DNA of 64,000 nucleotides, from NCBI RefSeq assembly GCF_020055675.1, contig NZ_JAIPUS010000004.1, positions 62,001-126,000 on the forward strand, written 5' to 3'. This DNA is from Marivita sp. (lineage in GTDB: Bacteria > Pseudomonadota > Alphaproteobacteria > Rhodobacterales > Rhodobacteraceae). The notes below the pieces were generated by a model. It worked only from the letters and a program-made list of their open reading frames with translations. It searched no databases and had not been told where the DNA came from. The position numbers were made by a program, and so were the translations under genes. Positions 11,979 to 30,534 of this stretch are shown here, piece after piece (position 1 is the stretch's first letter; every line of letters starts with the position of its first letter).

Positions 11979-11984
11979 ATGAAT
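11969..11984. promoter_or_regulatory. Palindromic operator candidate, shared with phnC upstream region
   Basis: ATTCATTCGGATGAAT is a near-perfect palindrome and differs at two positions from the element at 18516-18531 upstream of phnC. It overlaps the proposed phnF1 ATG (11979), which suggests either autorepression at the start site or that translation begins at the next in-frame ATG (11991). PhnF1 is the obvious candidate ligand. Confidence 0.5.
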
Positions 11985-12713
11985 AGAGCTATGATAAGAG
12001 ACCGTTGGCGCAACATTCGCGCAGCCATTAAACAGGATATCGAGAGCGGCGTGCTGGAACCAGGTACTAAATTACCCACAGAGCCAGAGCTGGCGCAAGC
12101 CTATGGCGCGGGAAGACACTCGATACGGCGCGCTGTGATCGAGCTGGGCAAAGAGGGCCTGCTGAGCGTCGAACAGGGGCGCGGTACTTTCGTGCAGAGT
12201 CGGCCACGCCTGACGTACACCATCGGCCCACGCACCCGGATGCGGCGCAACATGACCGCACAAGGCGTGGATGTGACCGGCGAAAGACTCTGGGCCGAGA
12301 CCTGCGCGGCGTCACCTCGGATCGCGAAAGCGCTGGCTTTGGACGAAGGCACGGAGGTGATCGCCACCCGCAGGCGTTCCTTTGCGAACGACGTCCCGGT
12401 GTCTTTCGGGACTATTTACCACGAGGCGGCCCGATTCGCGGAATTCTCGGACCGGCGCGAGATCATGGGATCGGTCAGTGCGGTCTATGCGTCTTACGGC
12501 ATCGAGGACTACAAACGTGCCAGTACGCAGATCCATGCGCGGCCGGCCCGCGCCGATGAGGCGCAAATGCTGAACCAACACCCGGATATGCCGGTGATCG
12601 TCGTGCAGGCCATCGATGCGGATCTGGGCGGTGCGCCGATCGCCTATAGCGAGGTGATCTGGTCCGCAGCGCGGGTCACTTTTGACATTTCCAACATGGA
12701 GACCGACCCGTGA
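11979..12713 (+). CDS. phnF: GntR/HutC-family regulator PhnF of phn locus 1
   Basis: Transcriptional regulator, 244 aa, with an N-terminal winged helix (residues about 10-75, with LPTEPELAQAYGAGRHSIRRA and the wing GRGTFV) and a C-terminal UTRA effector domain as in HutC-type GntR proteins. It heads the phn locus 1 genes and overlaps phnG by GTGA (12710-12713). It probably senses a phosphonate or phosphate-ester and controls this locus through the palindromes at 11969 and 18516. The start could be the ATG at 11991. A second PhnF-like gene is at 30535. Confidence 0.85.
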   Translation: MNRAMIRDRWRNIRAAIKQDIESGVLEPGTKLPTEPELAQAYGAGRHSIRRAVIELGKEGLLSVEQGRGTFVQSRPRLTYTIGPRTRMRRNMTAQGVDVTGERLWAETCAASPRIAKALALDEGTEVIATRRRSFANDVPVSFGTIYHEAARFAEFSDRREIMGSVSAVYASYGIEDYKRASTQIHARPARADEAQMLNQHPDMPVIVVQAIDADLGGAPIAYSEVIWSAARVTFDISNMETDP

Positions 12714-13153
12714 CCACTTTGCCCGACACGCTGCCTGGATGGGGCCATGCTGCGCTTCTGACAACGCTGGCGCGCGCCGATGACGCCCGACTGAAAGCCT
12801 TCGCCGAAAACCTGATCCCAGCCTTGCCCGAGGTCGAAGTGTTGGACAACCGCACCGGCCTTGTGATGCTGCCCATGCGTGACACCGCGCAGGGTACCCA
12901 TTTTCACCTTGGTGAAATCCTGATGAGTGAGGCGCGCATCACGGCGGGCGGCCAGGACGGCTACGGGATGCGCCGGGGCCGTGATCTCGAGGCTGCGATG
13001 GCCATGGCGCTGATCGATCTGGCGGTCGCGTTGGGTCTGGCCAAACCGGCCTGCGCCGCCTTTCTTGAAGCGGAATCCGCGGCGCAGGCCGAAACGGATC
13101 GCGAAACGCTGTGCCGGGTCGAGGCGACACGCGTGGATATGGAGACCTTCTGA
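12710..13153 (+). CDS. phnG: C-P lyase core-complex subunit PhnG (divergent copy)
   Basis: Subunit of the PhnGHIJ core (147 aa). The family pattern is visible as FHLGEILMSEARI followed by GYGMRRGRDLEAAMAMALIDLA, the counterpart of the E. coli NLGE..VTR...GY..GRD..HA region. It is clearly more distant from the canonical form than phnG2 in this window. Start is GTG in a 4-base overlap with phnF; the stop overlaps phnH by one base (TGATG). Confidence 0.85.
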   Translation: MTTLPDTLPGWGHAALLTTLARADDARLKAFAENLIPALPEVEVLDNRTGLVMLPMRDTAQGTHFHLGEILMSEARITAGGQDGYGMRRGRDLEAAMAMALIDLAVALGLAKPACAAFLEAESAAQAETDRETLCRVEATRVDMETF

Positions 13154-13689
13154 TGACAGCCCACCCCGCTCCGTCCGAGTTCGAGGCGCGCACCAACGCC
13201 ACCTTCGAGGCGCTCATGTGGGCCCTGTCGCGCCCCGGTTTGACCCGTGATCTGCCCGCACCAGGGCAGGCGGGGATCGTCGAGGCGCTGCTGGACCGCG
13301 AATGTAATGTCCACTGCGCCGACCCTGATCTTGCCCGGATTGCGGCCGCCACCGGTGCCGCTTTGGTGACACAAGAGCAAGCCGATCACCTGTTTCTTGA
13401 CATGCTGCCGGGCGCGGACGCTTTGAGGCAGATCGCCCTGGGATCCGATCTTTATCCGGAAACGGGCGCGACGCTGGTGTGCAACGCACGACTTGGACAG
13501 GGGGCGGCCCTGCGGATAAGCGGTCCGGGCTGCAACGGCGCGGTTGACGTGAAAGTGGCCGGGCTGCCGGATGGCTTCTGGCAAATGCGGGCGCGGTTGA
13601 TGCGCTACCCGATGGGGTTCGAACTCTTCCTTGTGGCGGGTGCGCAGGTTCTGGGCGTACCGCGCTCGAGTCAAGTGGAGGTGATCTGA
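13153..13689 (+). CDS. phnH: C-P lyase core-complex subunit PhnH (divergent copy)
   Basis: PhnH homologue of 178 aa, slightly shorter than E. coli PhnH (194). Residues 8-30 carry the family start (EARTNATFEALMWALSRPG), and the C-terminus has GFWQMRARLMRYPMGFELFLV, where PhnH proteins end with the PLGvDl segment. PhnH stabilises the (PhnGHI)2 core and is needed for phosphonate activation. It is locked in the operon by TGATG overlaps at both ends (13151-13155 and 13687-13691). Confidence 0.82.
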   Translation: MTAHPAPSEFEARTNATFEALMWALSRPGLTRDLPAPGQAGIVEALLDRECNVHCADPDLARIAAATGAALVTQEQADHLFLDMLPGADALRQIALGSDLYPETGATLVCNARLGQGAALRISGPGCNGAVDVKVAGLPDGFWQMRARLMRYPMGFELFLVAGAQVLGVPRSSQVEVI

Positions 13690-14780
13690 TGGCCTATGTG
13701 GCAACCCGGGGCGGAGAGCGGGCGATAGAACAATCCGAGCGCCTGTTCCGGGCCGAGATGGGAGAGATCACGGCCGACCGGGTGGCCGAAATGCGCAAGG
13801 CGCTGCCCTACCTGGTGGACCGGGTGATGGGGGAGGCCTCGCTCTATGACGAGGACCTGGCGGCTTTGGCCCTGGCCCAAACAGGGGGTGAGCTCTATGA
13901 GGCTGTGTTGCTCTTGCGGGCATGGCGCACGACGCAACCCCGCCTGACCGTGGCCGAGCCGGTCACACAGGAAAACCTGTTCACCCATCGCCGCATCTCG
14001 GCGGCGTTCAAGGATATTCCAGGCGGGCAGGTGCTCGGACCGACGTTGGACTATGCGCACCGTATTCTGGCGACCGAGGTGTTGTCGGGTGAGAATTTCC
14101 TGCCGACCCCGGTCGAGCCGGCATCCCGACCTTCCCCTGCGCAGCAGCCGTCTGTCGCCGCATGGCAGGCCGAGAACGACTTGCTGACGGCGCCTGAGCC
14201 AGACACGGCCAGCGGCAACACCATCCCTGACATCACGCGAGAGCCGCTTCTCTTTCCGGCCAAGCGCGCCCATACGCTGCAAAGCCTTGCACGGGCCGAA
14301 ACCGGCGGCGTTCTCGCCTTGGGATACGCCGCGCAGCGGGGCTACGGGCAGAACCATCCGACGGTCAATGAACTCCGTTTGGCCGAAGCCGATATCCGCG
14401 TCCGTCATCCGCGCGGCACCGAATTCAGCGCTGGCCGCGTCAAGGTGAGTCAGGCCGAAGTTGTCTCGAAAAGCGGTTCGGACCTTGGCTTGGGCTATGC
14501 CGCGACCCTTGGCTGGAACGAGGTCAAGGTGATCGCGGCTGCGACGCTGGATTTGAACGCCAAGGGTGCGCCAAAAGGGTCTGCCACCGAGGAGGAATTC
14601 TTCCTCTATCACACCGAAGGCGTCGAAAGCTCGGGCTTCTGCATCCACTTCAAGCTGCCGCACTACGTCACCTTCCAGTCCAGCCTCGATGCCATGCACG
14701 ACGCCAGAGCCAAGAAGGCGGCACAGGCCAAACGCGCCCCCAAGACCGACATTTCCCCACAGGTGGAGTCCGCAGAATGA
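13689..14780 (+). CDS. phnI: C-P lyase core-complex subunit PhnI (divergent copy)
   Basis: PhnI homologue of 363 aa (E. coli 354). In E. coli PhnI is a nucleosidase that, with PhnG, PhnH and PhnL, forms the ribose-triphosphate phosphonate. Seen here: N-terminal VATRGGERAIEQSERLF, a central RRISAAFKDIPGGQVLGPT, LALGYAAQRGYGQNHP, and the C-terminal LYHTEGVESSGFCIHFKLPHY, which keeps the two histidines at the PhnI-PhnJ metal site. Length and motif order are full. Overlaps phnJ as ATGA (14777-14780). Confidence 0.88.
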   Translation: MAYVATRGGERAIEQSERLFRAEMGEITADRVAEMRKALPYLVDRVMGEASLYDEDLAALALAQTGGELYEAVLLLRAWRTTQPRLTVAEPVTQENLFTHRRISAAFKDIPGGQVLGPTLDYAHRILATEVLSGENFLPTPVEPASRPSPAQQPSVAAWQAENDLLTAPEPDTASGNTIPDITREPLLFPAKRAHTLQSLARAETGGVLALGYAAQRGYGQNHPTVNELRLAEADIRVRHPRGTEFSAGRVKVSQAEVVSKSGSDLGLGYAATLGWNEVKVIAAATLDLNAKGAPKGSATEEEFFLYHTEGVESSGFCIHFKLPHYVTFQSSLDAMHDARAKKAAQAKRAPKTDISPQVESAE

Positions 14781-15691
14781 GCCTTGAAACGCTGACAAAG
14801 TCTTGGGAGCCGATGTCCTACGGATTCCTCGATGCCTCCGCCAAACGCGAGATCCGGCGCAAGACGCTCAAGGCCATCGCGGTGCCCGGATGCCAGATCC
14901 CCTATGCCAGCCGCGAGGTGCCCATGGCGCGCGGCTGGGGCACCGGCGGATTGCAGGTCTCCTGTACGCTCATCAACCCGGACATGCGCGTGAAGGTGAT
15001 CGACCAGGGCGCCGATGACAGCGTCAACGCCGCCTCGATCCGCAAGTTTCTGGCGCGGGTGTCGGGCGCACCTGTCACCATGGACACGCTGGAGGCCGAT
15101 CTCATCCAGTCGCGCCACCGCATCCCCGAGGAAAAGCTGCGCGAGGATCAGGTGCTTGTCCTGCAGGTGCCCAACCCCGAACCCCTGCGCCCGGTGCAGC
15201 CAAACATGTCCATCGCCCGGCAAATGCACGCGGATGCGGATTACGGGCGCATGTGGTTGCAGCTCTACGAACAGATCGTGCGCTCGGGCCGGGTGATGCA
15301 GGGGGCCAGCTATCCAAGCCTTGTCAACGGTCGCTTCGTCATGACGCCCTCTCCGATTCCGCGCTGGGACGTGCCCAAGATGGATATGGCGGCGCATCTC
15401 ACGATCCTGTCAGCCGGCCGCGAAAAACGACTGCACGCGGTGCCGCCCTATACACGTGTGGAACCACTGGTCTTTGACGATGTGCCTTTCCGGGTGGAGG
15501 ACCACGGCAGGCTGGTCTGCACCCGTTCGGGCGCGCGGGGGTTCTTCATGAATGAAATCCCGCAGGAGGATGGCACGTCGAGCTTTGAGGTCTCGGACAG
15601 CGAATTGGGTGTCAAGACGATCCACCGCCGCGACGGCGACGCGGCCCGGATCGGCGAGACCTGGTACACTGACGGGGAGATGGCCCAATGA
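14777..15691 (+). CDS. phnJ: PhnJ homologue lacking three of the four catalytic/cluster cysteines
   Basis: Homologue of the radical-SAM C-P lyase PhnJ, 304 aa. The fold-defining parts are present: YGFLDASAKREIRR, GWGTGGLQV, KVIDQGADDSVNAASIRKF, QSRHRIPEEKL and SPIPRWDVPKMD. In E. coli PhnJ, Cys241, Cys244 and Cys266 bind the [4Fe-4S] cluster and Cys272 carries the thiyl radical. Here the matching stretch reads LVCTRSGARG then FEVSDSELGV: only C248 (equivalent to 241) remains, while the others align with Ser, Val and Gly. The glycine that carries the glycyl radical (E. coli Gly32) is kept as G38 but is followed by Cys39 instead of Tyr; Cys63 is the only other cysteine. Canonical C-P bond cleavage is therefore doubtful. 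ATGA overlaps at both ends show it is expressed with its neighbours. Confidence 0.85.
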   Translation: MSLETLTKSWEPMSYGFLDASAKREIRRKTLKAIAVPGCQIPYASREVPMARGWGTGGLQVSCTLINPDMRVKVIDQGADDSVNAASIRKFLARVSGAPVTMDTLEADLIQSRHRIPEEKLREDQVLVLQVPNPEPLRPVQPNMSIARQMHADADYGRMWLQLYEQIVRSGRVMQGASYPSLVNGRFVMTPSPIPRWDVPKMDMAAHLTILSAGREKRLHAVPPYTRVEPLVFDDVPFRVEDHGRLVCTRSGARGFFMNEIPQEDGTSSFEVSDSELGVKTIHRRDGDAARIGETWYTDGEMAQ

Positions 15692-16485
15692 CGCTGACGC
15701 TAGATGCCCCCCGATTTGTCGAGACCAAACCTCTTCTCACGGCGCGCAACCTGTCGAAATCCTATGGCGATGTGCAGGCGCTGCGTGATGTCTCGGCCAC
15801 GGTTTATCCCGGCGAAGTTCTGGGAATCGTGGGCGAAAGCGGGTCGGGAAAGTCCACCTTCCTGCGCTGCCTTAACCTTGAGGAAACCCCGGACGCAGGC
15901 AGTTATTCGCTGGACTTGCCGGATGTGCAGGGCAACCTGTTCGATCTGGACCGTTACGGGCGCCGGATGCTGTGCGCGACGCGGATCGGCATCGTCTATC
16001 AGAACCCGCATCTTGGCCTTTTGATGGGTCATTCCTCATCCGGCAATGTGGCGGAACGTCTTCTGGTTGCGGGCGAACGCCGTTTCGAGGTCTTGCGGGA
16101 CAAGGCGCGCAATGCGCTCGACGCGTCCGAGTTTCCGCTCGACCGCATGGATGCCCCGCCCATCGAGCTGTCGGGCGGCATGCAGCAGCGGGTGCAGCTG
16201 GCCAAGGCCATCGCGCTCGAGCCCGCGCTTTTGCTGTTGGATGAACCCACCACGGGGCTGGACGTCAGCGTGCAGGCGCTGGTGCTGGACACGCTCAAAC
16301 GGCTGCAACAGGAACGCCGGATTACCATGGTCATCGTCAGCCACGATCTTGGCGTGATCCGCACCCTGTCGGATCGCGTGATGGTCATGCGGCGCGGGGC
16401 GGTGGTTGAAGAAGGCCTGGCCGATCAGGTCTTCCAGGATCCGCAACACAGCTACACACAACAATTGGTGCACGCAAAGCTATGA
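15688..16485 (+). CDS. phnK: C-P lyase ABC-type ATPase PhnK
   Basis: Soluble ABC ATPase, 265 aa, that docks on the PhnGHIJ core in E. coli. Complete nucleotide-binding domain: Walker A GESGSGKST, signature LSGGMQQRVQLAKA, Walker B LLLLDEPTTGLDVS, H-loop VSHDLGV. No transmembrane partner, as expected for PhnK. Begins in an ATGA overlap with phnJ; 73 bases separate it from phnL. Unlike PhnJ, its active-site motifs are all intact, so the machine still has a working motor. Confidence 0.9.
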   Translation: MTLTLDAPRFVETKPLLTARNLSKSYGDVQALRDVSATVYPGEVLGIVGESGSGKSTFLRCLNLEETPDAGSYSLDLPDVQGNLFDLDRYGRRMLCATRIGIVYQNPHLGLLMGHSSSGNVAERLLVAGERRFEVLRDKARNALDASEFPLDRMDAPPIELSGGMQQRVQLAKAIALEPALLLLDEPTTGLDVSVQALVLDTLKRLQQERRITMVIVSHDLGVIRTLSDRVMVMRRGAVVEEGLADQVFQDPQHSYTQQLVHAKL

Positions 16486-16558
16486 CACCTGAGCATTTTC
16501 AATCGAAGTGGGAACCGGTTCGATGGCTCGAACATGCGACCACTCAAGGAGCAGGCGA

Positions 16559-17299
16559 ATGACCCCTCAATTCAATCGCGATGCGCCTGTTCTGGAGGTT
16601 CGCAGCCTATCCAAAGGCTTTACCATGCACCACCTGGGTGCGCAGATGGCCGCCTTTGACGATATTTCCTTCCAGCTTCGCGCGGGAGAGTTTCTGCTGC
16701 TCAAGGGACGCAACGGCGCAGGCAAGTCCACGCTCTTGCGCGCGCTTTACAGGTCGTACCTGCCCGGCGGAGGCGAGATCCTGTTTCATTCTTCCCACGG
16801 TGTCATTGATCTGGCCCGCGCGGCGGATGTGGATGTCAGCCTGCTGCGCAAGACGGAAATGGGCTTTGTCACCCAGTTCCTGACCGCGCGGCCCCGCGTC
16901 AGCGCCGAAGCGCTGGTGGCCGAACCCTTGCGCCTGTCGGGCGTGGCGCAGGAAGACGCGCTAGAGCAGGCGCGACACTGGCTTGATGCATTCGGCGTCA
17001 AACGGACGCTTTGGGCGGCCTATCCCACCACTTTCTCGGGAGGGGAACAGCAAAAAGTGAACCTCGCCCGCGCTCTGATCCTGCCACAACGGCTCTTGCT
17101 TCTGGATGAACCGACTGCTTCGCTGGATGCGTCCGCCCGCGCGGCGTTGATCGACCGGCTCTCAGAGTTGAAATCCAGGGGCACAGCGATGGTCGGCGTC
17201 TTCCACCATCCCGGCGACGTTGCGCAACTGATCGACAGCGAAATCGATCTGACCCCGGACGTGAAATCTTTGGAGGAACGCGAAAATGTGGTTGTCTGA
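16559..17299 (+). CDS. phnL: C-P lyase ABC-type ATPase PhnL
   Basis: Second ABC-type subunit, 246 aa; in E. coli PhnL works with PhnGHI to transfer the triphosphoribosyl group from ATP to phosphonate. Walker A KGRNGAGKST, signature FSGGEQQKVNLARAL, Walker [15 protein letters not shown] and H-loop VFHHPGDV are present. The ATG at 16559 follows AAGGAG; an in-frame start 51 bases earlier lacks such a site. The 3' end overlaps phnM by 14 bases. Confidence 0.9.
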   Translation: MTPQFNRDAPVLEVRSLSKGFTMHHLGAQMAAFDDISFQLRAGEFLLLKGRNGAGKSTLLRALYRSYLPGGGEILFHSSHGVIDLARAADVDVSLLRKTEMGFVTQFLTARPRVSAEALVAEPLRLSGVAQEDALEQARHWLDAFGVKRTLWAAYPTTFSGGEQQKVNLARALILPQRLLLLDEPTASLDASARAALIDRLSELKSRGTAMVGVFHHPGDVAQLIDSEIDLTPDVKSLEERENVVV

Positions 17300-18479
17300 T
17301 GTTCGAATTGTCCTGCCGGACCGTGTCATCGAAAACGGGGCGCTTGGTATCAAGGATGGGCTCATCGCGGATATTGCAGAAGCTCCGGTAAAGGATGGCA
17401 TCAGGGCACCTGGCCACACGCTGTATCCCGGGTTCATCGACATGCACGGGGACATGATCGAGCTGGAACTGGAGCCGCGTCCACGGGTCGATTTCCCGAT
17501 GGATGTGGCGGTGGCGCATCTCGATGCACGGCTGGCCGCCTCGGGTGTGACAACCGCTTATGCTGGCGTCTCTTTCTCGCGCAGTGCCAAGGATGGCGAC
17601 CGCCGGTCGTTCGAGCATACCAGCAATATCATCCGCGCCCTGAAGGACAGCCTGAACGGCTTGCGCGTGGATCATCGCATTCACGCACGGTTCGACATGA
17701 CCTATACAGATGCCATTGACGCGCTGGAGGGCTTGCTGGACGCGGGTGCGGTCGATCTCGTCTCGGTGATGGATCATACACCTGGGCAGGGCCAGTACCG
17801 CAACCTCGAAAAGCTGGTGGCCTACCGCGCCCATGGACAAGGCGTTTCCGAAGCGCAGGCGCGCGCCGACATTCAGGCGCGCATGGACGCGGCGATCCCC
17901 CCCGAGCAGCTATTGGAGACCCTCAATGCCGTGTCCAGGCTGTGCCGCGCGCGCGGCATTGCCATGGCCAGCCACGACGATGACACGGTGGAAAAGACCA
18001 ACCTGATGGCAGATATCGGCGCGGTCATCAGCGAGTTTCCAGTGACACTGGAAGCGGCCCGGACCGCCGTGGCACGCGGATTGATGATTGCGATGGGGGC
18101 GCCCAACGCCATGCGGGGGCAAAGCTATTCCGGCAACCTGTCCGCGCGCGCGGCACATGCCGCAGGGCTGCTGCACATACTGGCCGCCGATTACCACCCT
18201 GCCGCGATCCTGCCGGCGATCACGGCGCTGGCACAGCAGGACCCGGACGGGTTGCCGGGAGCGGTCCGTCTTGCATCGGCCAATCCTGCGAAAACGCTTG
18301 GCTTGGCCGATCGCGGCGAGATCTCGATCGGCAAGCTGGCGGACCTGGTCCTTGTCGATCCCAGGGGCTGCGTCGCCACGACTCTGCGCGCTGGGCGGAC
18401 GATCTATTCAAATGGCATGATCGACCTCGCGACCGCCGTTGCCAGCGGGGCTTTTACCAAATTGTCACGGGCAGGTTAA
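17286..18479 (+). CDS. phnM: Amidohydrolase-type PhnM (divergent copy)
   Basis: Homologue of alpha-D-ribose 1-methylphosphonate 5-triphosphate diphosphatase, 397 aa, an amidohydrolase-fold enzyme that removes pyrophosphate from the intermediate. Conserved: MHGDMIELELEPRPRV (H54, D56, first metal ligands), MDHTPGQGQYRN, ASHDDDTVEKT and MGAPNAMRGQSYSGN. The canonical HTDN motif seen in phnM2 is HGDM here, so the substrate side differs. GGAGG precedes the ATG, which lies inside the end of phnL. Confidence 0.87.
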   Translation: MWLSDVRIVLPDRVIENGALGIKDGLIADIAEAPVKDGIRAPGHTLYPGFIDMHGDMIELELEPRPRVDFPMDVAVAHLDARLAASGVTTAYAGVSFSRSAKDGDRRSFEHTSNIIRALKDSLNGLRVDHRIHARFDMTYTDAIDALEGLLDAGAVDLVSVMDHTPGQGQYRNLEKLVAYRAHGQGVSEAQARADIQARMDAAIPPEQLLETLNAVSRLCRARGIAMASHDDDTVEKTNLMADIGAVISEFPVTLEAARTAVARGLMIAMGAPNAMRGQSYSGNLSARAAHAAGLLHILAADYHPAAILPAITALAQQDPDGLPGAVRLASANPAKTLGLADRGEISIGKLADLVLVDPRGCVATTLRAGRTIYSNGMIDLATAVASGAFTKLSRAG

Positions 18480-18531: not shown

Positions 18532-18556
18532 AAGACATCCGCGTTTGGGGGCACAA

Positions 18557-19372
18557 ATGACCGACAACTTGATCTTATCCGGCGTGACCCGCCAATTCGG
18601 AGACACCACAGCAGTCGACAACGTCTCGCTCTCTGTCGAGCCGGGGCAATTCGTTGGCGTCATCGGGCGCTCTGGTGCCGGAAAGTCCACGTTGCTGCGA
18701 TTGATCAACCGTCTTGTCGAGCCCAGTTCAGGGTCGGTTTCGTTTCAGGGTTCCGAGATTACCGCGCTGAAGGGCAAGGCCCTGCGGGACTGGCGCCGGG
18801 GCTGTGCGATGATCTTCCAGCAATTCAACTTGGTGGATCGGCTGGATGTGCTAACCAATGTGCTGATCGGACGGTTGGCAGAGCATGGATTCCTGTCGTC
18901 CATGGCCGCGCAATTCACCGACGAAGAGCGCGCATTGGCCATTCGGGCGCTTGACCGTCTCGATCTCGTGCCCCAGGCATTGCAACGCGCAGGAACGCTC
19001 TCGGGCGGCCAGCAGCAACGGGTGGCCATCGCCAAGGCCTTGGTACAGCAACCGAAAATCATGCTGGCGGATGAGCCGATCGCCTCGCTTGATCCGGCCA
19101 ATGCGACGCTGGTCATGGATGGACTCAAGCAAATCAACGCCGAAGACGGGCTGACCGTCATGGTCAACCTTCACACGCTGGATACGGCGCGCGCCTACTG
19201 TGATCGCATCATCGCCATGCGTGCGGGACGCGTCTTTTTCGACGGGACCGCGCGGCAGCTGACCGACGATGTGGTGCGCGACATCTATGGGCTGCAAGGG
19301 CTGGCCGAGTTCAACGAATCCGTCACGTCGACCGCCGCCCGCCCGACCGGCCAGTTTGCTCAGCCTGCCTGA
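18557..19372 (+). CDS. phnC: Phosphonate ABC transporter ATP-binding protein PhnC
   Basis: ATPase of a phosphonate importer, 271 aa. Walker [11 protein letters not shown]-loop FQQFNLV, signature [15 protein letters not shown], Walker [14 protein letters not shown] and H-loop NLHTLDTA are all present. The ATG at 18557 is preferred over an in-frame TTG 12 bases earlier, which lies within the spacer. It opens the transport segment, phnC-D-E-E, each in the expected order. Confidence 0.93.
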
Positions 19373-19440: not shown

Positions 19441-20346
19441 ATGCGTTTCATCACTGCTACCGCTCTCGCGGCCCTTATTGCGGCCCCGGCGCTCGCCGAC
19501 GGCTGGAAAGAAGATTACCAGGTTCTGAAGTTTGGCATCCTGTCGGGCGAGAACGAAAAAGACCGGATCGCGCGCTACACGCCGTTCGAGGAATATCTCA
19601 AGCGGGAACTCGGCGTCGAGGTCGAGATTTTCACAGCCGGCAACTATGATGGCGTGATCCAGGCGCTGGCCGCCGACCAGATCGAGTTCGCGTTTCTCGG
19701 CTCTGCCGCCTATGCTGCGGCTTACACCGCGACCGATGCCGGCGTGGAACCGCTGGTGTCCCGCGTCCAGAACGACGGATCGACCGGCTATTATTCCGTC
19801 ATTGTCACCCGCTGCGACAGCGGTCTGGAGGACATCGCCGCGCTCGAAGGCAAGGTTCTGGCCTTTGCCGATCCCGACAGCACCTCCGGCTACGCGGTTC
19901 CATATTTCAACCTGTCCAAGGAAGTGGATCCGAAGACCTATTTCTCCGCGATCCCCTTCTCCGGCAGCCACGAGGCCGGCGTGCAGGGGGTGGTAAACGG
20001 AACCTTCGACGCGGCCGCCACCTACGAGACGAACGAAACAAACGGAATCGTTCAGCGCATGGTCACGAAGGGCATGATTGGCGATGGCGAAGCCTGCAAT
20101 ATCTGGGCGTCCCCCGAGATCACCTCCGGTCCGCTGACGGCGCGTGCGAACCTGCCGCAGGACCTCAAGGACGCGATGCAGACGGCCGTGATGGAAAGCC
20201 CCGAGAAGGACAAAACGGCGTTCATCGAGATGTCCGGCGGTGTGGACTCCACCCAGAAGGGATGGATCCGCGTTGACCACGACCGCTACCAGTGGATCGT
20301 CGACATGCGCGACTGGATCAAGAAAGAGCGCCGCTCCGGCTCGTGA
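19441..20346 (+). CDS. phnD: Phosphonate ABC transporter substrate-binding protein PhnD
   Basis: Periplasmic binding protein, 301 aa, with a signal peptide (residues 1-19, ending APALAD). The PhnD fold is shown by LKFGILSGENEKDRIARYTP near the N-terminus, AADQIEFAFLGSAAYAAA, the DPDSTSGYAVP loop that holds the phosphonate group in E. coli PhnD, and GVVNGTFDAAATYE. AAAGAGG lies before the ATG. The ligand cannot be deduced. Confidence 0.93.
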   Translation: MRFITATALAALIAAPALADGWKEDYQVLKFGILSGENEKDRIARYTPFEEYLKRELGVEVEIFTAGNYDGVIQALAADQIEFAFLGSAAYAAAYTATDAGVEPLVSRVQNDGSTGYYSVIVTRCDSGLEDIAALEGKVLAFADPDSTSGYAVPYFNLSKEVDPKTYFSAIPFSGSHEAGVQGVVNGTFDAAATYETNETNGIVQRMVTKGMIGDGEACNIWASPEITSGPLTARANLPQDLKDAMQTAVMESPEKDKTAFIEMSGGVDSTQKGWIRVDHDRYQWIVDMRDWIKKERRSGS

Positions 20347-20412: not shown

Positions 20413-21360
20413 ATGACTGCAACCGCAGACATTGCGAGTGGCTCACGGCCGCAGGGCACAGGCGCCATTGCCGATTTCGAAATCGCCTTCGCCGCCAGGC
20501 GCCGCCGCATGCGCACAAGCTGGGCGATTGGAGCGATCCTGTTCCTGATTGTCTTTGCGTTCACCAGCTGGATCGGGGATTTCTTCAAGGTCACGCAAGT
20601 CAGCATGCCCGATGGATCGCGCGAATGGCGCTGGATCATCCCGGCTGGGATTCCGCGCTTGGGCGAATTTATCGAGAAGACCATTCCGGCCCTGCGGTGG
20701 GACACCCTGGGTGTGGATATCGCTGAGTGGTTCTGGCGCTGGCAGATCTGGATGGGCTTGCTGTTCGAAACAATCCTGATCGCGTTCATGGCCACGGTTC
20801 TGGGCGTGATCGGCGGCTTTGTCCTTTCCTTTCCGGCTGCACGCAACCTGGCCCCCAACAGGTGGGTGCTCTTGATCACCCGCCGCTATCTCGAAATCGC
20901 GCGAACCGTGCCCGAGTTGGTCTGGGCGTTGATATTTGTCTTCTGCTTTTCAGTCGGCCCGATGGCCGGGGTGCTGGCCATCGGGCTGCACGCCACCGGG
21001 GCCCTGGGCAAGCTCTATTCCGAAGTGAACGAAAATATCGACATGCGCCCGCTCGAAGGCGTCAAGGCCGCAGGCGGGACATGGTTTGACCAGGTCCGCT
21101 ATGGCGCGGTGCCGCAGGTACTTCCCAATATCATAAGCTACACGCTCTTGCGGTTCGAGATCAACGTCCGTGCCTCGTCGATCATTGGCTATGTCGGCGC
21201 CGGTGGGCTGGGGCAGGAATTCCGCGTCGCCATTAGCTTTCAGGAATACACCGACCTGTCAGCCCTTTTCGTCATCATTTTCGTGACCGTCATGGTCATC
21301 GACTACGGATCCGAAAAACTGCGCCATCGCGTTATCGGACTGGGGGAACGCACGTCATGA
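20413..21360 (+). CDS. phnE: Phosphonate ABC transporter permease PhnE (first)
   Basis: Inner-membrane permease, 315 aa, about six helices, with the BPD-transport EAA-loop region ENIDMRPLEGVKAAGG that contacts PhnC. An extended soluble stretch between the first helix (about 35-52) and the second (about 110-135) is typical of long PhnE proteins. Its stop overlaps the second permease as ATGA (21357-21360), so the two form a heterodimeric channel. Confidence 0.92.
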   Translation: MTATADIASGSRPQGTGAIADFEIAFAARRRRMRTSWAIGAILFLIVFAFTSWIGDFFKVTQVSMPDGSREWRWIIPAGIPRLGEFIEKTIPALRWDTLGVDIAEWFWRWQIWMGLLFETILIAFMATVLGVIGGFVLSFPAARNLAPNRWVLLITRRYLEIARTVPELVWALIFVFCFSVGPMAGVLAIGLHATGALGKLYSEVNENIDMRPLEGVKAAGGTWFDQVRYGAVPQVLPNIISYTLLRFEINVRASSIIGYVGAGGLGQEFRVAISFQEYTDLSALFVIIFVTVMVIDYGSEKLRHRVIGLGERTS

Positions 21361-22220
21361 GCCTGACTCAATCAAAAATCGCCGCCGCGCGCCGCCGTGT
21401 GCCCCTGGCCTTCCAGGCGCCGCTGTCCGTCCGTATCCGCCGCTACGCGCTCTGGGCCTTTTTCATCGGTCTGTTTGGCTGGTGTCTTTACGATTTCAAC
21501 TTTTCGCCTGCGCGTATCTGGGAAGGGCTGGGGCGCCTCGGGACCGTCATGTCCTTCATGTTCCCGCCCCATGTCTGGGACAATTGGTCTGATTTCTCGG
21601 AGGTCCTGAATGGTCTGGGCGAAACGCTGGCGATTGCCTTTCTCGGCACCCTGCTGGGTGCGATCTTTGCCTTGCCGTTGTCACTTCTTGGGGCCAAGAA
21701 CATCATCAGGCAAAGCATCCTGCGCCTGACTGTGCGGCGGGGCTATGACATCATACGTGCCTTCGAAACCCTGGTCCTTGCGTTGATCTTCATCCGCGCG
21801 TTCGGTCTTGGGCCGCTGGCCGGCATCCTCGCGATTGCGGTCAGTGAGATCGGCACCTTTGCCAAGCTGTTTTCGGAAGCAATCGAGAACACCTCTGAGA
21901 AACCGGTGGAAGGGGTCAAGGCCTCGGGCGGGTCACGCCTGCAGCAGATCCGCTTTGGCATCACGCCCCAGGTGAACCCGGTGATCCTGTCCATCCTCCT
22001 CTACAATTTCGAGTCCAACGTGCGCTCGGGCACGATCCTCGGGATTGTCGGCGCGGGCGGGATCGGATTCCTGTTGTCGGACCGCATCGCCGCCTACAGG
22101 TGGGACGAGGCCTGGTCGATCATCTTCCTGATCATCGGCATGGTCTACCTGATCGATTGGTTGTCGGGGCTGATCCGGACGCGGTTGATCGGTGGACAGG
22201 AAGGGAGAGCATTGAAATGA
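21357..22220 (+). CDS. phnE: Phosphonate ABC transporter permease PhnE (second)
   Basis: Partner permease, 287 aa, with the matching EAA loop ENTSEKPVEGVKASGG and the conserved C-terminal GIVGAGGIGFLL. Together with the preceding PhnE it makes the two-permease arrangement common in alphaproteobacterial phosphonate importers. The stop overlaps the transglutaminase-like gene as ATGA (22217-22220), which ties that gene to the transporter. Confidence 0.92.
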   Translation: MSLTQSKIAAARRRVPLAFQAPLSVRIRRYALWAFFIGLFGWCLYDFNFSPARIWEGLGRLGTVMSFMFPPHVWDNWSDFSEVLNGLGETLAIAFLGTLLGAIFALPLSLLGAKNIIRQSILRLTVRRGYDIIRAFETLVLALIFIRAFGLGPLAGILAIAVSEIGTFAKLFSEAIENTSEKPVEGVKASGGSRLQQIRFGITPQVNPVILSILLYNFESNVRSGTILGIVGAGGIGFLLSDRIAAYRWDEAWSIIFLIIGMVYLIDWLSGLIRTRLIGGQEGRALK

Positions 22221-23053
22221 CAAGTCACGAGGTCATCTACACGGTCGACGTTCCGGACGGAACGGACGCGGTTCTGGTGCCCGGCGGCATCGCCACCCCG
22301 CATGGCACTATTGTCGAGATCGGCTGCGATGAGGCTTCGCTGGACCTTGTGGCGGAAGCCACAACTGGCCAATCCGTCGGGATCGTCCGGTCTCCGGCCG
22401 GGTCCGTTACCTTGCGGCTGCGCTGCGATGCGGGGCAGGTGGCACCCTATCCCGACAAGATGTTCGATCCGGCACCGTCCCGGTACACCTGCGCGGCGGA
22501 CGATCTTGTCATCGAGGCGAAAGACGCGGCCCGTGACCTCAAGGGCCTTGCCCGGGCCCAAGCCATCGCGCGTCACACCGCAGACCGCTTTTCCTACGGC
22601 CACCCCGAAGCGCGGTTCAACGACGGCCATGATGTCGTGCCAGCGCTGGGGTGCGGCGTGACCGAAGGGTCCTGCGTCGACATCAACACCTATTTCCTCG
22701 CGGCCCTGCGTGCCTCGGGGATAGAGGCGGGTTATGTCACGGGGTTCTTCTTTCCACAGGAAAAGACGGATCATTGCACCGATGGCCATTGCTGGGTCGT
22801 GACCCGGATCGACGGCGTGACCCATGAATGGGACATTGCCCACCACCTCAAGCTGGGCACCCGCGACATCGCACCGGCGCTCAATCCAAAGCCGGGTCAC
22901 CGCGTGGCGTGTTTCCATTCGATGGGGCTCGATATTCCCGAACGCGGGGGCTTGGCGCTGAAGGCCCTGATCGAGCCCATGGCTGTCCGCGATGGCCAGG
23001 TCCTTCGATTCAAGGAGCCTGCCATTCGTCTTGCCGTTCCCGCCCTGACGTGA
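22217..23053 (+). CDS. Transglutaminase-like cysteine hydrolase family protein in phn locus 1
   Basis: A 278-residue protein with a C-terminal transglutaminase-like (papain-fold) domain. The triad can be placed at C153 (EGSCVDINTYF), H191 (TDGHCWVV) and D206 (THEWDIAHH). Residues 1-100 form a beta-rich N-terminal part as in many bacterial members. No signal peptide, so cytosolic. It begins in an ATGA overlap with the second phnE, hence part of the phosphonate transport operon. Members are peptidases, amidases or acyl transferases; the substrate here is unknown, possibly an amide or peptide-linked phosphonate. Confidence 0.75.
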   Translation: MTSHEVIYTVDVPDGTDAVLVPGGIATPHGTIVEIGCDEASLDLVAEATTGQSVGIVRSPAGSVTLRLRCDAGQVAPYPDKMFDPAPSRYTCAADDLVIEAKDAARDLKGLARAQAIARHTADRFSYGHPEARFNDGHDVVPALGCGVTEGSCVDINTYFLAALRASGIEAGYVTGFFFPQEKTDHCTDGHCWVVTRIDGVTHEWDIAHHLKLGTRDIAPALNPKPGHRVACFHSMGLDIPERGGLALKALIEPMAVRDGQVLRFKEPAIRLAVPALT

Positions 23054-23260
23054 CGGGGTGCGACGAAGACCCGAAGATCAGGGCTCGGGTGCGCGTGCCC
23101 ACAGATCGCGTGCCGCGTCTGCATCACTTACGTCCGCCCGGGGCCGCAATCCAGCCGCGATCAGCGTGCGCATGAGATCGGGGTCGCAGGGGATGTCATC
23201 ATCATGCAGGCCGGGGTGTTGACGGCCCCGCACAACAGTTTTGCAAAACAGGAGAAACCC

Positions 23261-23890
23261 ATGAGCGGCGCAGGCGCAAAGAACCACCTGAACGAAGAGC
23301 CGAATATCCACCCCGAGGCCAGCGTGGTCGACTGTGAGCTGGGCGCATGGACCGAAGTCGGCAAGGGCACGTCGATGCGGGCGTCCTCCATGGGGGACTG
23401 GTCCTATATCACCCAGCACTGTCACGTGGTCTGGACCAGTATCGGCAAGATGTGTTCCATCGCGAACGGCGCGCGGATCAATCCCGGCAACCATCCGACA
23501 TGGCGGGCCGTGCAGCATCACAGCGTCTACCGGGCCGAAGCCTACGGACTGGGCGAGGACGATCACGACTTCTTCGAATGGCGCAAGGCCGACTGGGTCA
23601 CCATCGGCCATGACGTCTGGATCGGGCACGGCGTGACCATCACCGCAGGCGTGACCATCGGCACCGGTGCCGTGATCGGTGCCGGTGCGGTTGTGACCCG
23701 GGATGTGCCCCCCTATACCGTTGTCGGTGGTGTGCCCGCACGGGTTCTCAAGCGCCGCTTTTCGGACCAGCAGGCAGAGGCGCTGATGGAGATCGCGGTC
23801 TGGGACTGGTCGCATGATGCCTACAAGCGCGCACTGCCCGACATAAGGAGGCTCGACATCGATGCTTTCATTGAGAAATATCGGGGCTGA
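23261..23890 (+). CDS. Hexapeptide-repeat acyltransferase of phosphonate operons
   Basis: A left-handed beta-helix acyltransferase, 209 aa. Hexapeptide turns run from about residue 12 to 175, including [17 protein letters not shown] and [23 protein letters not shown], the classic acetyl-CoA-using signature. Such transferases recur in phn operons and are thought to acetylate an aminophosphonate or an intermediate, a role comparable with PhnO. AGGAG precedes the chosen ATG at 23261. The last 29 bases overlap the first permease gene. Confidence 0.82.
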
Positions 23891-25234: not shown

Positions 25235-26377
25235 TCAACTGACCTTGTTGCCCCGGCTCCAGACGCCGCGAAGAAGGGGCGTCTGCCCGGCGATGTGCAC
25301 GCGCAGGACATCGCCCCGCAATCCCGGCAGCAGCGCGCCGCGGTCGGCCAGCCGCGCGGCGCGCGCGGGGGTGCGGGTGACCGTCGCGATTGCGCGTGGC
25401 AGGTCATCCCAGAGGCGGGCGAGGTGGAAGGCTGATAAAAGCAGCGCCGACGGAACGTAATCCGACGAAACGATGTCCAGCAGACCGGCCTTCGCCAGGT
25501 CTTCGGCGGCAACATTTCCAGAATGCGAGCGGCCCCGGATCAGATTGGGTGCGCCCATCATCACCGCAATGCCCCGAGTGCGGCAGGCTCGGGCTGCTTC
25601 AATCGTTGTCGGGAATTCGGCGAAGCCGACACCACTTTCACAGGAATTCGCGACATGCTCGGCCGTGGTGTCGTCGTGGCTTGCGAGCACAGCGCCAAGG
25701 CGGCCCGCTTCGGCGACGGCGCCGACCTCGTGGCTTGCGCCAAAGCGCTCTTGCAAAGCCAACAGCGTCTCGACATGGGTTGCGAATTCCGCATCATTCA
25801 TGCCGCGCTTTTTGGACACATAGGTCTTCAGCGCGGTCAGATCGCGGAATTGGCGTTGGCCCGGGGTGTGGTCCATCAGGCTGACGATGCCGATCCGATC
25901 CTCCGGACCGAAGGCGGCAAGGTCGTCCAGCAGCGTCTCGGAACAGATTTCGGCCCGTAGATGCAGGAAGTGGCTGATTTTGAACAGCCCATCGGCGCGC
26001 GCAGCCAGCAGTTCGTCGGCCAGTTTGCGCGCGTGACCGATATAGCGCGCCTTGCCGGTATGCACGAACCCCACGCGCAACGCATCGAACACGGTGGTGA
26101 TTCCCGTCGAGGCAAGCTCTGCATCATGGGCGATCAAGGCGGGAAGATGGGGCCAGTCCACCTCGGGGCGCGGCTCGATGTGGCGCTCGACATTGTCGGT
26201 GTGAAGCTCAACCAACCCGGGCAGAACCAGATCGCCCGCACAATCCACCGCACCTGTCGGCACGTTTTCTCCCTCCGCGATGTCCGAGATCATGCCCCTC
26301 TCGATCGTGACCGAGCCGCGTACCACCCGATCCGGCAGCACCACTTGCGCATTGGCAAGGCAGACGTCACCTGACAT
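25235..26377 (-). CDS. phnM: Canonical PhnM, alpha-D-ribose 1-methylphosphonate 5-triphosphate diphosphatase
   Basis: A 380-residue amidohydrolase-fold enzyme that hydrolyses the triphosphate intermediate to the 5-phosphate and pyrophosphate. It carries the canonical metal motif ELHTDNVERHIEPRPEVDWP (H59, D61), AHDAELASTGITTVFDALR, MDHTPGQRQFRD, ASHDDTTAEHV and MGAPNLIRGRSHSGN. It is intact and closer to the E. coli type than phnM1 at 17286. The ATG at 26377 is preferred because the longer frame would run into the divergent gene; this ATG overlaps the candidate Pho box at 26371-26388. Confidence 0.9.
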   Translation of the reverse strand: MSGDVCLANAQVVLPDRVVRGSVTIERGMISDIAEGENVPTGAVDCAGDLVLPGLVELHTDNVERHIEPRPEVDWPHLPALIAHDAELASTGITTVFDALRVGFVHTGKARYIGHARKLADELLAARADGLFKISHFLHLRAEICSETLLDDLAAFGPEDRIGIVSLMDHTPGQRQFRDLTALKTYVSKKRGMNDAEFATHVETLLALQERFGASHEVGAVAEAGRLGAVLASHDDTTAEHVANSCESGVGFAEFPTTIEAARACRTRGIAVMMGAPNLIRGRSHSGNVAAEDLAKAGLLDIVSSDYVPSALLLSAFHLARLWDDLPRAIATVTRTPARAARLADRGALLPGLRGDVLRVHIAGQTPLLRGVWSRGNKVS

Positions 26378-26388
26378 GTCGCTGTCAT
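26371..26388 (+). promoter_or_regulatory. Candidate Pho box upstream of the DUF1045 gene
   Basis: CTGACAT-GTCG-CTGTCAT has two half-sites matching the PhoB consensus CTGTCAT at 6/7 and 7/7 with the correct 4-base spacer. It lies 38 bases upstream of the plus-strand gene at 26427 and overlaps the first codons of the divergent phnM2. It is the best PhoB-type site seen in the window. Confidence 0.55.
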
Positions 26389-26426
26389 ATGCCTTCGTCA
26401 AAGAGGAGGCCGGGAAAGGAGAATTC

Positions 26427-27098
26427 ATGTCATATACTCGATTTGCTATTTTCTATGTGCCGCCCGAAGGGCCATTGGCGGAATTTGGTGCGTCCTGGTT
26501 GGGCTGGGATATCGTAAACGGTGCCGAGGCGCGTCAACCCGAGCTGCCCGGTTTGCATGATATCACCATGACGCCGCGCAAATACGGGTTTCATGGGACG
26601 CTGAAACCCCCGTTTCGGCTGAAGCAGGGGCATGACGTGCAAGACCTGGCAACGGCCATTTCGGAGATGGCTGAAACGCTTGCGCCAGCCTGTTGCGACG
26701 GGCTGGACCTGACGCCGCTGGGGCGCTTCTTGGCGTTGACACCCCGCGGAGACATGGCCCCCTTGCGGCGGGTGGCGCAGGCCTGCGTCCGTGATCTTGA
26801 TGGGTTTCGCAGCCCGGCATCGGAGGAGGAGCTCGCACGCCGCAGACAGGCGGGGCTCAGCCCCCGGCAAGAGGCGCTGTTGATGAAATGGGGCTATCCG
26901 TATGTCATGGAAGAGTTTCGATTTCACCTGACCCTGTCGGGACGACTGCCGCGCGAAGCCATTCCGAAATGGAGGGATATCTTGTACGACAGGCTGCCGG
27001 ATTTGCCTGCACCCTTCGTGATGGACAGCATCGCACTCTGCGGCGAACGGGGCGACGGGCGTTTCGAGCTGATCCATCGCTACAACCTCGTGGGCTGA
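26427..27098 (+). CDS. DUF1045 phosphonate-operon protein, 2H-phosphoesterase-like
   Basis: A 223-residue protein of the DUF1045 group that recurs in phn gene clusters. Two His-x-Thr motifs, HGT at 56-58 (YGFHGTLKPPF) and HLT at 167-169 (FRFHLTLSG), are the hallmark of 2H phosphoesterases, which open cyclic phosphodiesters. No phnP is seen in the window, so this protein may hydrolyse the 5-phosphoribosyl 1,2-cyclic phosphate made by C-P lyase. That function is inference. AAAGGAG precedes the ATG. The 3' end overlaps phnN by 19 bases on the opposite strand. Confidence 0.8.
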   Translation: MSYTRFAIFYVPPEGPLAEFGASWLGWDIVNGAEARQPELPGLHDITMTPRKYGFHGTLKPPFRLKQGHDVQDLATAISEMAETLAPACCDGLDLTPLGRFLALTPRGDMAPLRRVAQACVRDLDGFRSPASEEELARRRQAGLSPRQEALLMKWGYPYVMEEFRFHLTLSGRLPREAIPKWRDILYDRLPDLPAPFVMDSIALCGERGDGRFELIHRYNLVG

Positions 27099-27625
27099 AG
27101 CAAGGCCACGGCGCGGGCGACAGTTTGAGCCAGCGGTCCGTCATTCGAGACATGGATCACGTCGAGGCCGGCGGGCAGGGGCGTTTCGGCCCGCGCAAGG
27201 CGGGCTGATATTTCGTCTTCAGTCTCGCGCCCGCGCCCGGAAAGACGCTGTGCCAGTGTCTCGGATTGCGCCGTGATGTTCAGGACCACGAAGCGCGGAA
27301 AGACCACGGCCGCTTCCCCGAGGGTCTTTCGAGAGAAGTTCACAAGGCAATCGGTGCCCTTGTTCAGCTGGTATTTCACCGTGACAGGGATGCCATAACA
27401 AAGCCCGTGGGCACCCCAATGCACCGCAAAGGCGCCATCCCGGTGCAAAGCGGCGAACTGCTCGTCAGAGACCGCGTCATACTCTTCGCCACCCAGGTCC
27501 GGTGCCCGCGTAATCACCCGCCGCACCAAGTGAAGGCGCGGCATTGCCTCGTGAATACCGGCCATCACGCTGTCCTTGCCAACACCCGATGGTCCAACAA
27601 CCGCTATGAGGCGTCCTTGTGTCAT
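27080..27625 (-). CDS. phnN: Ribose 1,5-bisphosphate phosphokinase PhnN
   Basis: Makes PRPP from ribose 1,5-bisphosphate, the last step of C-P lyase ribose recycling. 181 aa, guanylate-kinase-like fold with P-loop [11 protein letters not shown] at residues 9-19, RVITRAP and the lid-region Arg cluster [13 protein letters not shown]. The ATG overlaps the stop of the phnJ'-'phnL fusion (ATGA 27622-27625), which shows that the operon spacing survived the rearrangement upstream. Confidence 0.92.
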
Positions 27626-28212
27626 GCGGCAACTCCGGGGGTATAACGGCTGACATCGATCTCGCGGTCACATACACGGGCGCGTGCGGCCTCGTCATGG
27701 AAGATGCCGATGATCGCGGCGCCCCGTGTCTTGGCGCTTTCGATCAAGGCAAGAACCACCTCGCGGTTTTCCGCGTCGAGGCTGGCGGTCGGTTCATCCA
27801 GAAGCATTGCCGGATAGGCGTGGGCAAAGCCACGTGCGATATTCACGCGCTGTTCCCGGCCTGCGCCGAAGAGCTGGATCGCGGGGCAATCGCCCAGCTT
27901 GGGGTTGTCGAATTTCGGGATCGGCGACGCGTCCATCACGTAGCGCCCTTCGACCTTTACCGGATACGCGTAAGATGTCGCGATGTTTCCGTGGCGGCTG
28001 ATGTCCTCGTAAAGTTTCACATGCATCAGGCCGTATTCCTCAAGGCTGTCCATCTTGCGGGTCTCGCTTTCGCGCGGTTCGAGAAACCGAAGCGGTTCCG
28101 GGATCGGCACCTGGTAGCCAGGGATCGCCAGACCCTTGAGGATGGTCCGGCGGATCATGCGTTTCGTCTGCTCGTCCAGATAGACGAAATTGTATTCGGA
28201 AGAGGGTGTCAC
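27622..28212 (-). pseudogene. In-frame phnJ'-'phnL fusion with internal phnJ deletion
   Basis: A 196-codon open frame assembled from three pieces. Residues 1-36 are the PhnJ N-terminus ([23 protein letters not shown]). Residues ~36-119 resume in mid-PhnJ ([53 protein letters not shown]). Residues ~120-196 are the C-terminal PhnL half ([37 protein letters not shown]). Lost are about 110 PhnJ residues, the PhnJ cysteine region, all of PhnK and the PhnL Walker A. Junctions lie near 28105-28113 and 27853-27858. Both parental sides encode similar short motifs there (QVP; G-x-E-x-QR), which suggests deletion between short repeats. It cannot act as C-P lyase or ATPase, yet the frame is open and coupled to phnN. 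Confidence 0.85.
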
Positions 28213-28277
28213 AAGACTGTCTCACTGCTGTGGTTAATGCAACGCATCGAGTGGCTGTCCGCTACCCCGGGGGTTTT

Positions 28278-28481: not shown

Positions 28482-28483
28482 GG

Positions 28484-28652
28484 TCACGGCACCGCCCTTT
28501 CCGTCAGGGCGGTTTCCAGCGCTTCGCGCGCGGACCCTGATGCGGGCGGCACAGGCATGCGCCGCCAATGCCGGTCCAGCGCGGCCTTGCCGTGCACGAT
28601 GCGGCTGCCAGTCGATCAGCGCCCTGCGGATGTCGATGTGCTTATAGGTCAT
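28484..28652 (-). pseudogene. Unassigned remnant after phnH'-'phnI
   Basis: An ATG at 28650-28652 overlaps the phnI stop as ATGA, the usual coupling signal, so a gene once began here. The reading frame MTYKHIDIRRALIDWQ soon turns into unlikely Arg/Ala-rich sequence. One frame over, codons read HGKAALDRHWRRMPVPP and end at a stop near 28485. This fits a short gene with a frameshift, or the stump left by the deletion or insertion that brought in the small plus-strand gene. No function is offered. Confidence 0.3.
28491..28516 (+). terminator. Hairpin after the small membrane gene
   Basis: ACCGCCCT (28491-28498) and AGGGCGGT (28506-28513) form a perfect 8-bp GC-rich stem with a 7-base loop, followed by a very short TT. 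It lies 10 bases after the stop of the plus-strand 67-residue gene. On the minus strand it would also interrupt phn locus 2 transcription. Confidence 0.55.
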
Positions 28653-30453: not shown

Positions 30454-30470
30454 CTCGACAACTTTGCTGA

Positions 30471-30486
30471 TCTATATACAACTAGA
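30471..30486. promoter_or_regulatory. Operator candidate between phnG2 and phnF2
   Basis: TCTATATACAACTAGA has inverted TCTA/TAGA ends and an AT-rich core, resembling HutC-type GntR operators (xxTCTAGAxx or TATAGA types). It lies between divergent phnG2 and phnF2 and is unrelated to the palindromes of locus 1, so each locus would have its own PhnF switch. Confidence 0.35.
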
Positions 30487-30534
30487 CATATCCTACCAGA
30501 TCCCCTGATCCAAGACAGTGGAGTTTTGTGAAAT

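Follow-up and report, generated by a model that had tools for sequence, protein, structure and literature searches.

A conserved clade of cysteine-poor PhnJ proteins without the radical-SAM ligands, in Alphaproteobacteria and Thermus

A stretch of 64,000 nucleotides from Marivita sp. (contig NZ_JAIPUS010000004.1, positions 62,001 to 126,000; hereafter the window) carries a phn operon of the carbon-phosphorus (C-P) lyase kind, in which PhnJ has lost cysteines on which the E. coli enzyme depends. In E. coli PhnJ, Cys241, Cys244 and Cys266 hold the [4Fe-4S] cluster and Cys272 carries the thiyl radical. Such a complex probably operates in another way or has a different target. The gene concerned, here termed type 2, is the following.

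14777..15691, plus strand: PhnJ, type 2 (PF06007), cysteine-poor, with the radical S-adenosylmethionine (SAM) ligands lost and Gly38, R113, H114, Q130 and C248 kept.

The reading frame translates to 304 amino acids and closes at the expected stop. PF06007 is the sole Pfam match of the protein (385.4 bits, cut-off 25, E 1.5e-115), and the match is full-length, spanning residues 13-277 and model positions 3-268 of 275. Residues 14-276 were aligned by phmmer with E. coli PhnJ of PDB entries 7z15 and 4xb6, and E. coli positions 241, 244, 266 and 272 correspond to C248, S251, V272 and G278, so that only the first stays a cysteine. E. coli Gly32, the site of the glycyl radical, corresponds to Gly38, with Cys39 next to it. 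The window protein is a PhnJ by family, but its residues at these sites are not those of a SAM-dependent radical C-P lyase. Both the residues at the four positions and the retained Gly38 followed by Cys39 had been read from the sequence in a first-pass annotation of this DNA, and both hold.

A scan of a genome collection found 102 relatives, 80 of which were kept (75-92% identical over almost the full length), with Rhodobacterales and Rhizobiales among their hosts. Scores fell into two groups, type 2 (the window included) at 523-689 bits and 30 canonical loci at 256-280 bits. In an alignment of the window PhnJ with the 80 relatives, C248, S251 and G278 are present in 81/81 rows, while all four cysteines are present in the 30/30 canonical rows. 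A search of plasmids added two Thermus thermophilus sequences, one from HB8 plasmid pVV8 and one from a second plasmid of this species, in which the four sites read Cys-Thr-Val/Ile-Met; a Microvirga PhnJ reads Cys-Ser-Leu-Ala, and a Haloarcula PhnJ is canonical. The residue tables made earlier held 102 cysteine-poor and 66 canonical rows, with duplicates among them and with one mis-cut fragment (L091) that is unreadable at most sites there and whole in the 81-row alignment. After duplicates and this fragment were taken out, only Cys241 of the four was kept in 87/87 distinct cysteine-poor sequences, Thermus and Microvirga included, and all four were kept in 59/59 distinct canonical sequences from all sources.

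Other cysteines do not take the place of those lost. The C-terminal domain contains one cysteine in 86 of the 87 distinct cysteine-poor proteins and two in the remaining one, compared with at least four in canonical rows, and both Thermus proteins have a single cysteine in the entire chain, which rules out, in this extreme case, a cluster held by cysteines within PhnJ. The first-pass annotation had named other cysteines at the cluster site as grounds for giving up its claim; on these counts that candidate was rejected.

The glycine that carries the radical in E. coli is conserved in all 87 cysteine-poor sequences, and residue 39 is Cys in 83 of them, which might suggest a glycyl-radical enzyme activated in trans, with the radical on Gly38 and Cys39 standing in for Cys272. 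However, residue 39 is Tyr in the other four (L147, both Thermus proteins and Microvirga), which share the same other losses. No activase was noticed among the operon genes, although the scan used phn queries alone, and the hosts of type 2 are mostly aerobes. This explanation is very unlikely, and the case for C39 as a new universal thiol is weakened by the same four sequences. C39, C63 and C248 had been proposed as conserved in a clade of this cysteine-poor form; of the three, C248 is conserved throughout, C39 is not universal, and position 63 is Cys in only 17/81 rows.

The clade itself was recovered. In a tree that includes Thermus, 32 cysteine-poor rows form one side of a branch with support of 100/98, and Thermus branches beside the alphaproteobacterial cysteine-poor PhnJ with support of 100/99, in a midpoint-rooted tree whose bootstrap was not fully settled and in which two long-branch canonical rows lie nearest. 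An earlier tree without Thermus, with 48 type-2 rows, gave the same split (100/99). Rows shorter than 230 residues were dropped from the trees, as were several duplicate loci, and type-2 loci were thinned; the tree with Thermus also omits L152, which is very long, and the majority of the canonical loci L004-L033. In eight pairs, the ratio of nonsynonymous to synonymous substitution rates (dN/dS) was 0.023-0.112, rough values since several synonymous distances are near 1. These data demonstrate that the cysteine-poor PhnJ is a conserved clade under purifying selection that extends from Alphaproteobacteria to Thermus. Sequencing error, a pseudogene and chance were rejected as sources of the changes, because 80 relatives share them and dN/dS was 0.02-0.11 in the eight pairs.

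Type 2 is uncommon. It was found in 16/295 genomes sampled from the family, 2/385 from the class and 5/349 from the phylum, each count including the window genome; in the phylum sample the type was assigned by score and checked in sequence for G781 and G890. A species of the window's genus (G676) carries two type-2 clusters (L181 and L182). The Rhizobium genome G710 encodes, at about position 9904 of L152, a third and highly divergent PhnJ that has the four cysteines, Gln in place of His108 and its own G-L cluster. G781 and G890 (L149 and L151) each carry a divergent four-cysteine PhnJ cluster approximately 15-35 kb from the type-2 one, in addition to an ordinary canonical PhnJ.

The type-2 operon of the window is a run of plus-strand genes in the order phnF, G, H, I, J, K, L, M, C, D, E1, E2, transglutaminase-like gene and acyltransferase gene, with these members besides phnJ.

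11979..12713, plus strand: phnF-type GntR/UTRA regulator; Pfam GntR and UTRA matches, homologue in type-2 loci.
12710..13153, plus strand: PhnG, type 2; PF06754, TIGR03293 at 73.6 bits, under the cut-off of 89.
13111..13689, plus strand: PhnH, type 2; PF05845, TIGR03292 above cut-off.
13689..14780, plus strand: PhnI, type 2; PF05861 at 360.1 bits, H223, H320 and H325 kept, Cys318 present.
15688..16485, plus strand: PhnK, type 2, a non-transport ATP-binding cassette (ABC) ATPase; best match TIGR02323 at 226.8 bits, under the cut-off of 302.85.
16508..17299, plus strand: PhnL, type 2, an ABC ATPase; best match TIGR02324 at 236.7 bits, under the cut-off of 256.3.
17286..18479, plus strand: PhnM, type 2; NF011988 at 451.5 bits, above cut-off.
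18545..19372, plus strand: PhnC, ABC importer ATPase; named by sequence and by an order common to type-2 loci.
19441..20346, plus strand: PhnD, binding protein; named by gene order and by relatives in L127 and L099 that match E. coli PhnD.
20413..21360, plus strand: PhnE1, permease; named by sequence and order.
21357..22220, plus strand: PhnE2, permease; named by sequence and order.
22217..23053, plus strand: transglutaminase-like protein; PF01841 at 48.6 bits, sporadic, with a homologue in 8/80 type-2 loci.
23204..23890, plus strand: hexapeptide acyltransferase of the phosphonate type; TIGR03308 at 273.9 bits, above cut-off.

The phnGHIJKLM set is whole in the window, as the first-pass annotation had stated of the neighbouring subunits, and all eight genes from F to M were matched in 76 of the 80 related loci, the other four being contigs of 4.6-8.3 kb that end within the cluster. 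By the NCBI models, PhnG, PhnK and PhnL of the window fall below their cut-offs and PhnH and PhnM above theirs. The operon shares with E. coli C-P lyase PhnGHIJ-KL (PDB 4xb6 and 7z15-7z19) all subunits, the operon logic and the PhnJ family; PhnN, DUF1045 and PhnP are absent from the window's type-2 operon. Two adjoining ORFs (open reading frames) follow the operon at 23862-24904, the first just under the cut-off for an ArsP-type permease, and they recur beside some type-2 clusters.

The residues that handle the substrate in E. coli were then compared. In the account of the E. coli structure (PMC9947105), 5-phosphoribosyl 1,2-cyclic phosphate is modelled at the zinc site between PhnI and PhnJ, contacted by PhnJ R107, H108, Q124 and the loop 47-50, and zinc is bound by PhnI H328 and H333, with H219 added in the open state. 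R107, H108 and Q124 are present in 87/87 cysteine-poor sequences, and PhnI H219, H328 and H333 in 82/82 rows (H223, H320 and H325 in the window). The nucleotide motifs of PhnK and PhnL and the conserved His and Asp residues of PhnM are likewise retained in type 2. Among the residues tested, the loss is limited to the radical apparatus, and the residues of the putative ribosylation machinery and zinc site stay.

The cysteine-poor proteins also share features of their own. R52, W160, R250, N259 and K280 belong to a signature (at most one miss in the 102 rows, rare in the 66 canonical rows), and R52 immediately precedes the PhnJ loop that touches the 5-phosphate. PhnK R82 and PhnJ D226, which the same source names among the PhnK-PhnJ interface contacts of E. 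coli (PMC9947105), are both substituted in type 2, and because of this the PhnJ-PhnK pair seems to have co-changed. Type-2 PhnI carries Cys318, two residues before the zinc ligand H320, in 79/79 alphaproteobacterial rows and in 0/16 canonical rows; the residue is Ala in Thermus. Other new conserved cysteines occur in PhnM (76/76), PhnH (75/79) and PhnK (71/80).

These additional cysteines, together with C241 and Gly32 in 87/87 sequences, bear on whether the known radical C-P cleavage could persist with a cluster whose ligands are not cysteines or come from a different subunit. With a single cysteine in Thermus PhnJ, with C272 gone in all 87 sequences, and with the new PhnI cysteine placed just ahead of a zinc histidine and replaced in Thermus, this explanation is extremely improbable.

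Of the two readings offered by the first-pass annotation, a C-P-lyase-like complex with changed chemistry is better supported than a structural PhnJ dependent on some other catalytic subunit, because a clade under selection has lost the radical ligands and kept the ribosyl-phosphate and zinc-site residues as well as the partner subunits. More specifically, the reading favoured here is that type 2 may be an active, non-radical C-P-lyase-like complex in which the radical step has been abandoned, and our confidence in it is about evenly balanced. In such a complex, PhnCDE would import a phosphorus compound as in the canonical pathway, PhnI with PhnG, PhnH and PhnL would join it to ribose 5-triphosphate from ATP, and PhnM would then trim the product to a 5-phosphoribosyl 1-ester. 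Cleavage of the leaving-group bond would then take place at the PhnI/PhnJ zinc site and would involve neither SAM nor a thiyl radical; most likely the ribose 2-OH, aided by zinc and PhnJ His114, would attack and give a 1,2-cyclic phosphate, with attack by water as the alternative. Non-radical cleavage would fit substrates whose leaving group requires no radical, and the candidates are activated phosphonates or P-O, P-N or P-S compounds with a leaving group better than alkyl. A cyclic phosphodiesterase, perhaps DUF1045, and PhnN would finish the product, usually from a canonical cluster in the same genome.

Within 200 bp upstream of phnF, 42 of 74 testable type-2 loci have a Pho-box-like site that matches the consensus in at least 11 of 14 letters, 41 of them at about -28 to -60, compared with about 1.15% of 1480 random control stretches of the same loci that reach this threshold. 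Phosphorus control of type-2 loci is likely, with PhoB as the putative regulator. PhnN is encoded in 34/34 type-2 genomes tested, 33 of them above the cut-off, and DUF1045 in 31/31 tested, 18 above the cut-off; PhnP above the cut-off was found in 0/14 type-2 genomes tested. DUF1045 has been proposed as a phosphodiesterase that acts on the cyclic product (PMC8235418). The type-2 operon of G781 reads G H I J K L M DUF1045 N, with DUF1045 at 263.8 bits. G074, in which type 2 is the only PhnJ, has PhnN and DUF1045 on the flanks of the cluster, and Paenochrobactrum (G715, locus L099), also with type 2 alone, has PhnN just upstream of it.

These results are relevant to the alternative that the complex merely ribosylates its substrate, for storage, detoxification or modification, and has lost bond cleavage. 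That the ribosylation subunits and the PhnM residues are kept while the PhnJ radical ligands are gone counts in its favour. However, the Pho-box enrichment and the joining of PhnN and DUF1045 to the G781 and G074 clusters suggest that phosphorus is released as a ribose phosphate, and PhnJ, PhnK and PhnL are retained together across loci; ribosylation alone is improbable.

PhnJ occurs in 147/295 family genomes, and 14 of the 16 with type 2 also have a full-length canonical PhnJ, compared with at most 131 of the 279 others, fragments counted (Fisher p 0.0016). Among 16 other species of the window's genus, all 7 with type 2 have canonical PhnJ, compared with 2 of the 9 without it, and of 32 genomes drawn from the 80 loci, for the most part named isolates, 31 carry both types; these three counts are not to be added, because some genomes recur across samples. 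The two clusters lie less than 20 kb apart in G000, G230, G250, G080, G688 and G676. Three genomes, that of the window, G074 and G715, have type 2 without an intact canonical PhnJ, and in Thermus, where the search covered plasmid records, PhnJ occurs only in its cysteine-poor form. In the window genome the canonical cluster is present as a broken copy at 25235-31254, overlooked in the first-pass annotation, with these parts (cluster B).

25235..26428, minus strand: second PhnM, open frame, with homologues in type-1 (canonical) clusters.
26430..27098 (ORF from 26280), plus strand: DUF1045/TIGR03223, open frame; 239.5-240 bits, slightly under the cut-off of 248.95.
27080..27625, minus strand: PhnN, open frame; TIGR02322 at 184.1 bits, above cut-off.
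27622..28212, minus strand: relic of a canonical PhnJ, its middle and C-terminus gone, fused in frame to the end of PhnL.
28649..29998, minus strand: PhnH fused in frame to PhnI without its N-terminal part.
29998..30453, minus strand: PhnG.
30535..31254, plus strand: phnF-type regulator.

As assembled, the window genome retains type 2 and open frames for the end-of-pathway enzymes PhnN, DUF1045 and PhnM, and has lost the canonical core. At the DNA level, F, G, H, I', J' and L' of cluster B match same-genus clusters best (81-92% identity) and M, DUF1045 and N match those of another lineage best (70-76%), and cluster B is thus a mosaic of two lineages. The in-frame H-I and J-L fusions arose from deletions, though a fault of assembly is possible.

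The frequent presence of canonical PhnJ in all three samples, and the sometimes short distance between clusters, are what would be seen if type-2 PhnJ were a structural subunit or pseudoenzyme and the canonical PhnJ of the same genome cleaved the bond in trans. This possibility is unlikely. It is the weaker of the two first-pass readings because three genomes and the Thermus plasmid records show type 2 without an intact canonical PhnJ. PhnK R82 and PhnJ D226 are also both replaced, as though the type-2 J pairs with its own K.

However, it should be noted that several observations weigh against an active, non-radical type-2 complex. The common co-residence of canonical PhnJ fits a dependence on it equally well, and PhnN and DUF1045 are uninformative in genomes that carry canonical PhnJ. 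DUF1045 occurs in 205/295 family genomes, compared with 147 that have PhnJ, so its presence alone says little, and this background weakens it as proof of a cyclic product. In G890, the gene order is that of G781, but DUF1045 is fragmented (one piece with an internal stop) and the PhnN match is weak. In a column test of decay, PhnN and PhnM of cluster B diverge from same-genus copies because that block is nearer to another lineage, so that the survival of these two genes is weak evidence; the test is unreliable for the J/L and H/I fusions, for which whole chimeric frames were aligned, and covers just 7-14 columns for G, I and DUF1045. The window's own phnF promoter has just 9/14 Pho-box letters, and a locus-wide scan for sites of at least 12 letters found them in 20/80 type-2 and 5/16 type-1 loci, which does not separate the types; a scan of the window alone gave one 13/14 site, at cluster B, and was superseded by the comparative scan. 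Finally, the AlphaFold model of type-2 PhnJ, built from the window and 56 of the 80 loci, was poor (mean predicted local distance difference test score, pLDDT, 58.6), so residue positions were taken from the E. coli alignment and the model was used solely for confirming the fold family; its top six Foldseek hits are E. coli C-P lyase chains of PhnJ length, at 46-48% identity.

More broadly, these loci may represent a radical-free branch of the C-P lyase scaffold, found in at least two phyla, in which ATP-driven ribosylation and the zinc site would free phosphorus from a class of compounds unassigned to any Phn system, perhaps non-phosphonates, a proposal that we hold tentatively and rate as somewhat less than an even prospect. 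A recent review sorts C-P cleavage into hydrolytic, oxidative and radical modes and assigns C-P lyase to the last of these (PMC10574752); if a radical-free branch does exist, the zinc site would be a catalytic centre by itself. The E. coli structure poses a puzzle, in that some 30 Å separate the cluster site from the radical glycine while the modelled cyclic product sits at the zinc site between PhnI and PhnJ (PMC9947105), and with a natural complex in which the zinc site persists and the cluster is gone, the role of each becomes testable. PhnJ also serves for counting phosphonate users and methane sources, and public annotation labels the type-2 relatives as C-P lyase PhnJ; in the family sample, 16 of the 147 PhnJ-positive genomes have type 2, and two of these lack an intact canonical PhnJ, one having none at all and the other only a broken copy. 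T. thermophilus HB8, with its plasmid-borne cysteine-poor PhnJ, is a standard laboratory organism. No report of a cysteine-poor PhnJ was found in the open-licence PubMed Central papers searched.

Among known systems, type-2 clusters differ from E. coli C-P lyase in the three lost PhnJ cysteines (87/87), the replaced PhnK-PhnJ contacts and R52, W160 and R250, whereas ribosyl-phosphate contacts, PhnI zinc histidines and the PhnK and PhnL ABC motifs are shared. Type-1 clusters of the same family, typically ordered C D E1 E2 LbH / F / G H I J K L N DUF1045 M, consist of homologous genes, usually share a genome with type 2 and at times adjoin it, but have a four-cysteine PhnJ (59/59), with PhnN in the cluster and DUF1045 in most of the fetched loci. 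The phn operon of pVV8 (NC_017767.1), whose genes are cited as phosphonate genes (PMC5529391), shares with the window the cysteine-poor PhnJ (Cys, Thr, Val, Met), the side of the branch and the zinc histidines; it differs in a PhnJ that is 57% identical to the window's and has a single cysteine, in a LacI-type regulator and in having one PhnE annotated. This operon lies at 9010-14439 of L183, the T. thermophilus HB8 pVV8 locus, and a TIGR00282-type metallophosphoesterase is encoded downstream of it, as it also is in the SNM1-1 plasmid (L184).

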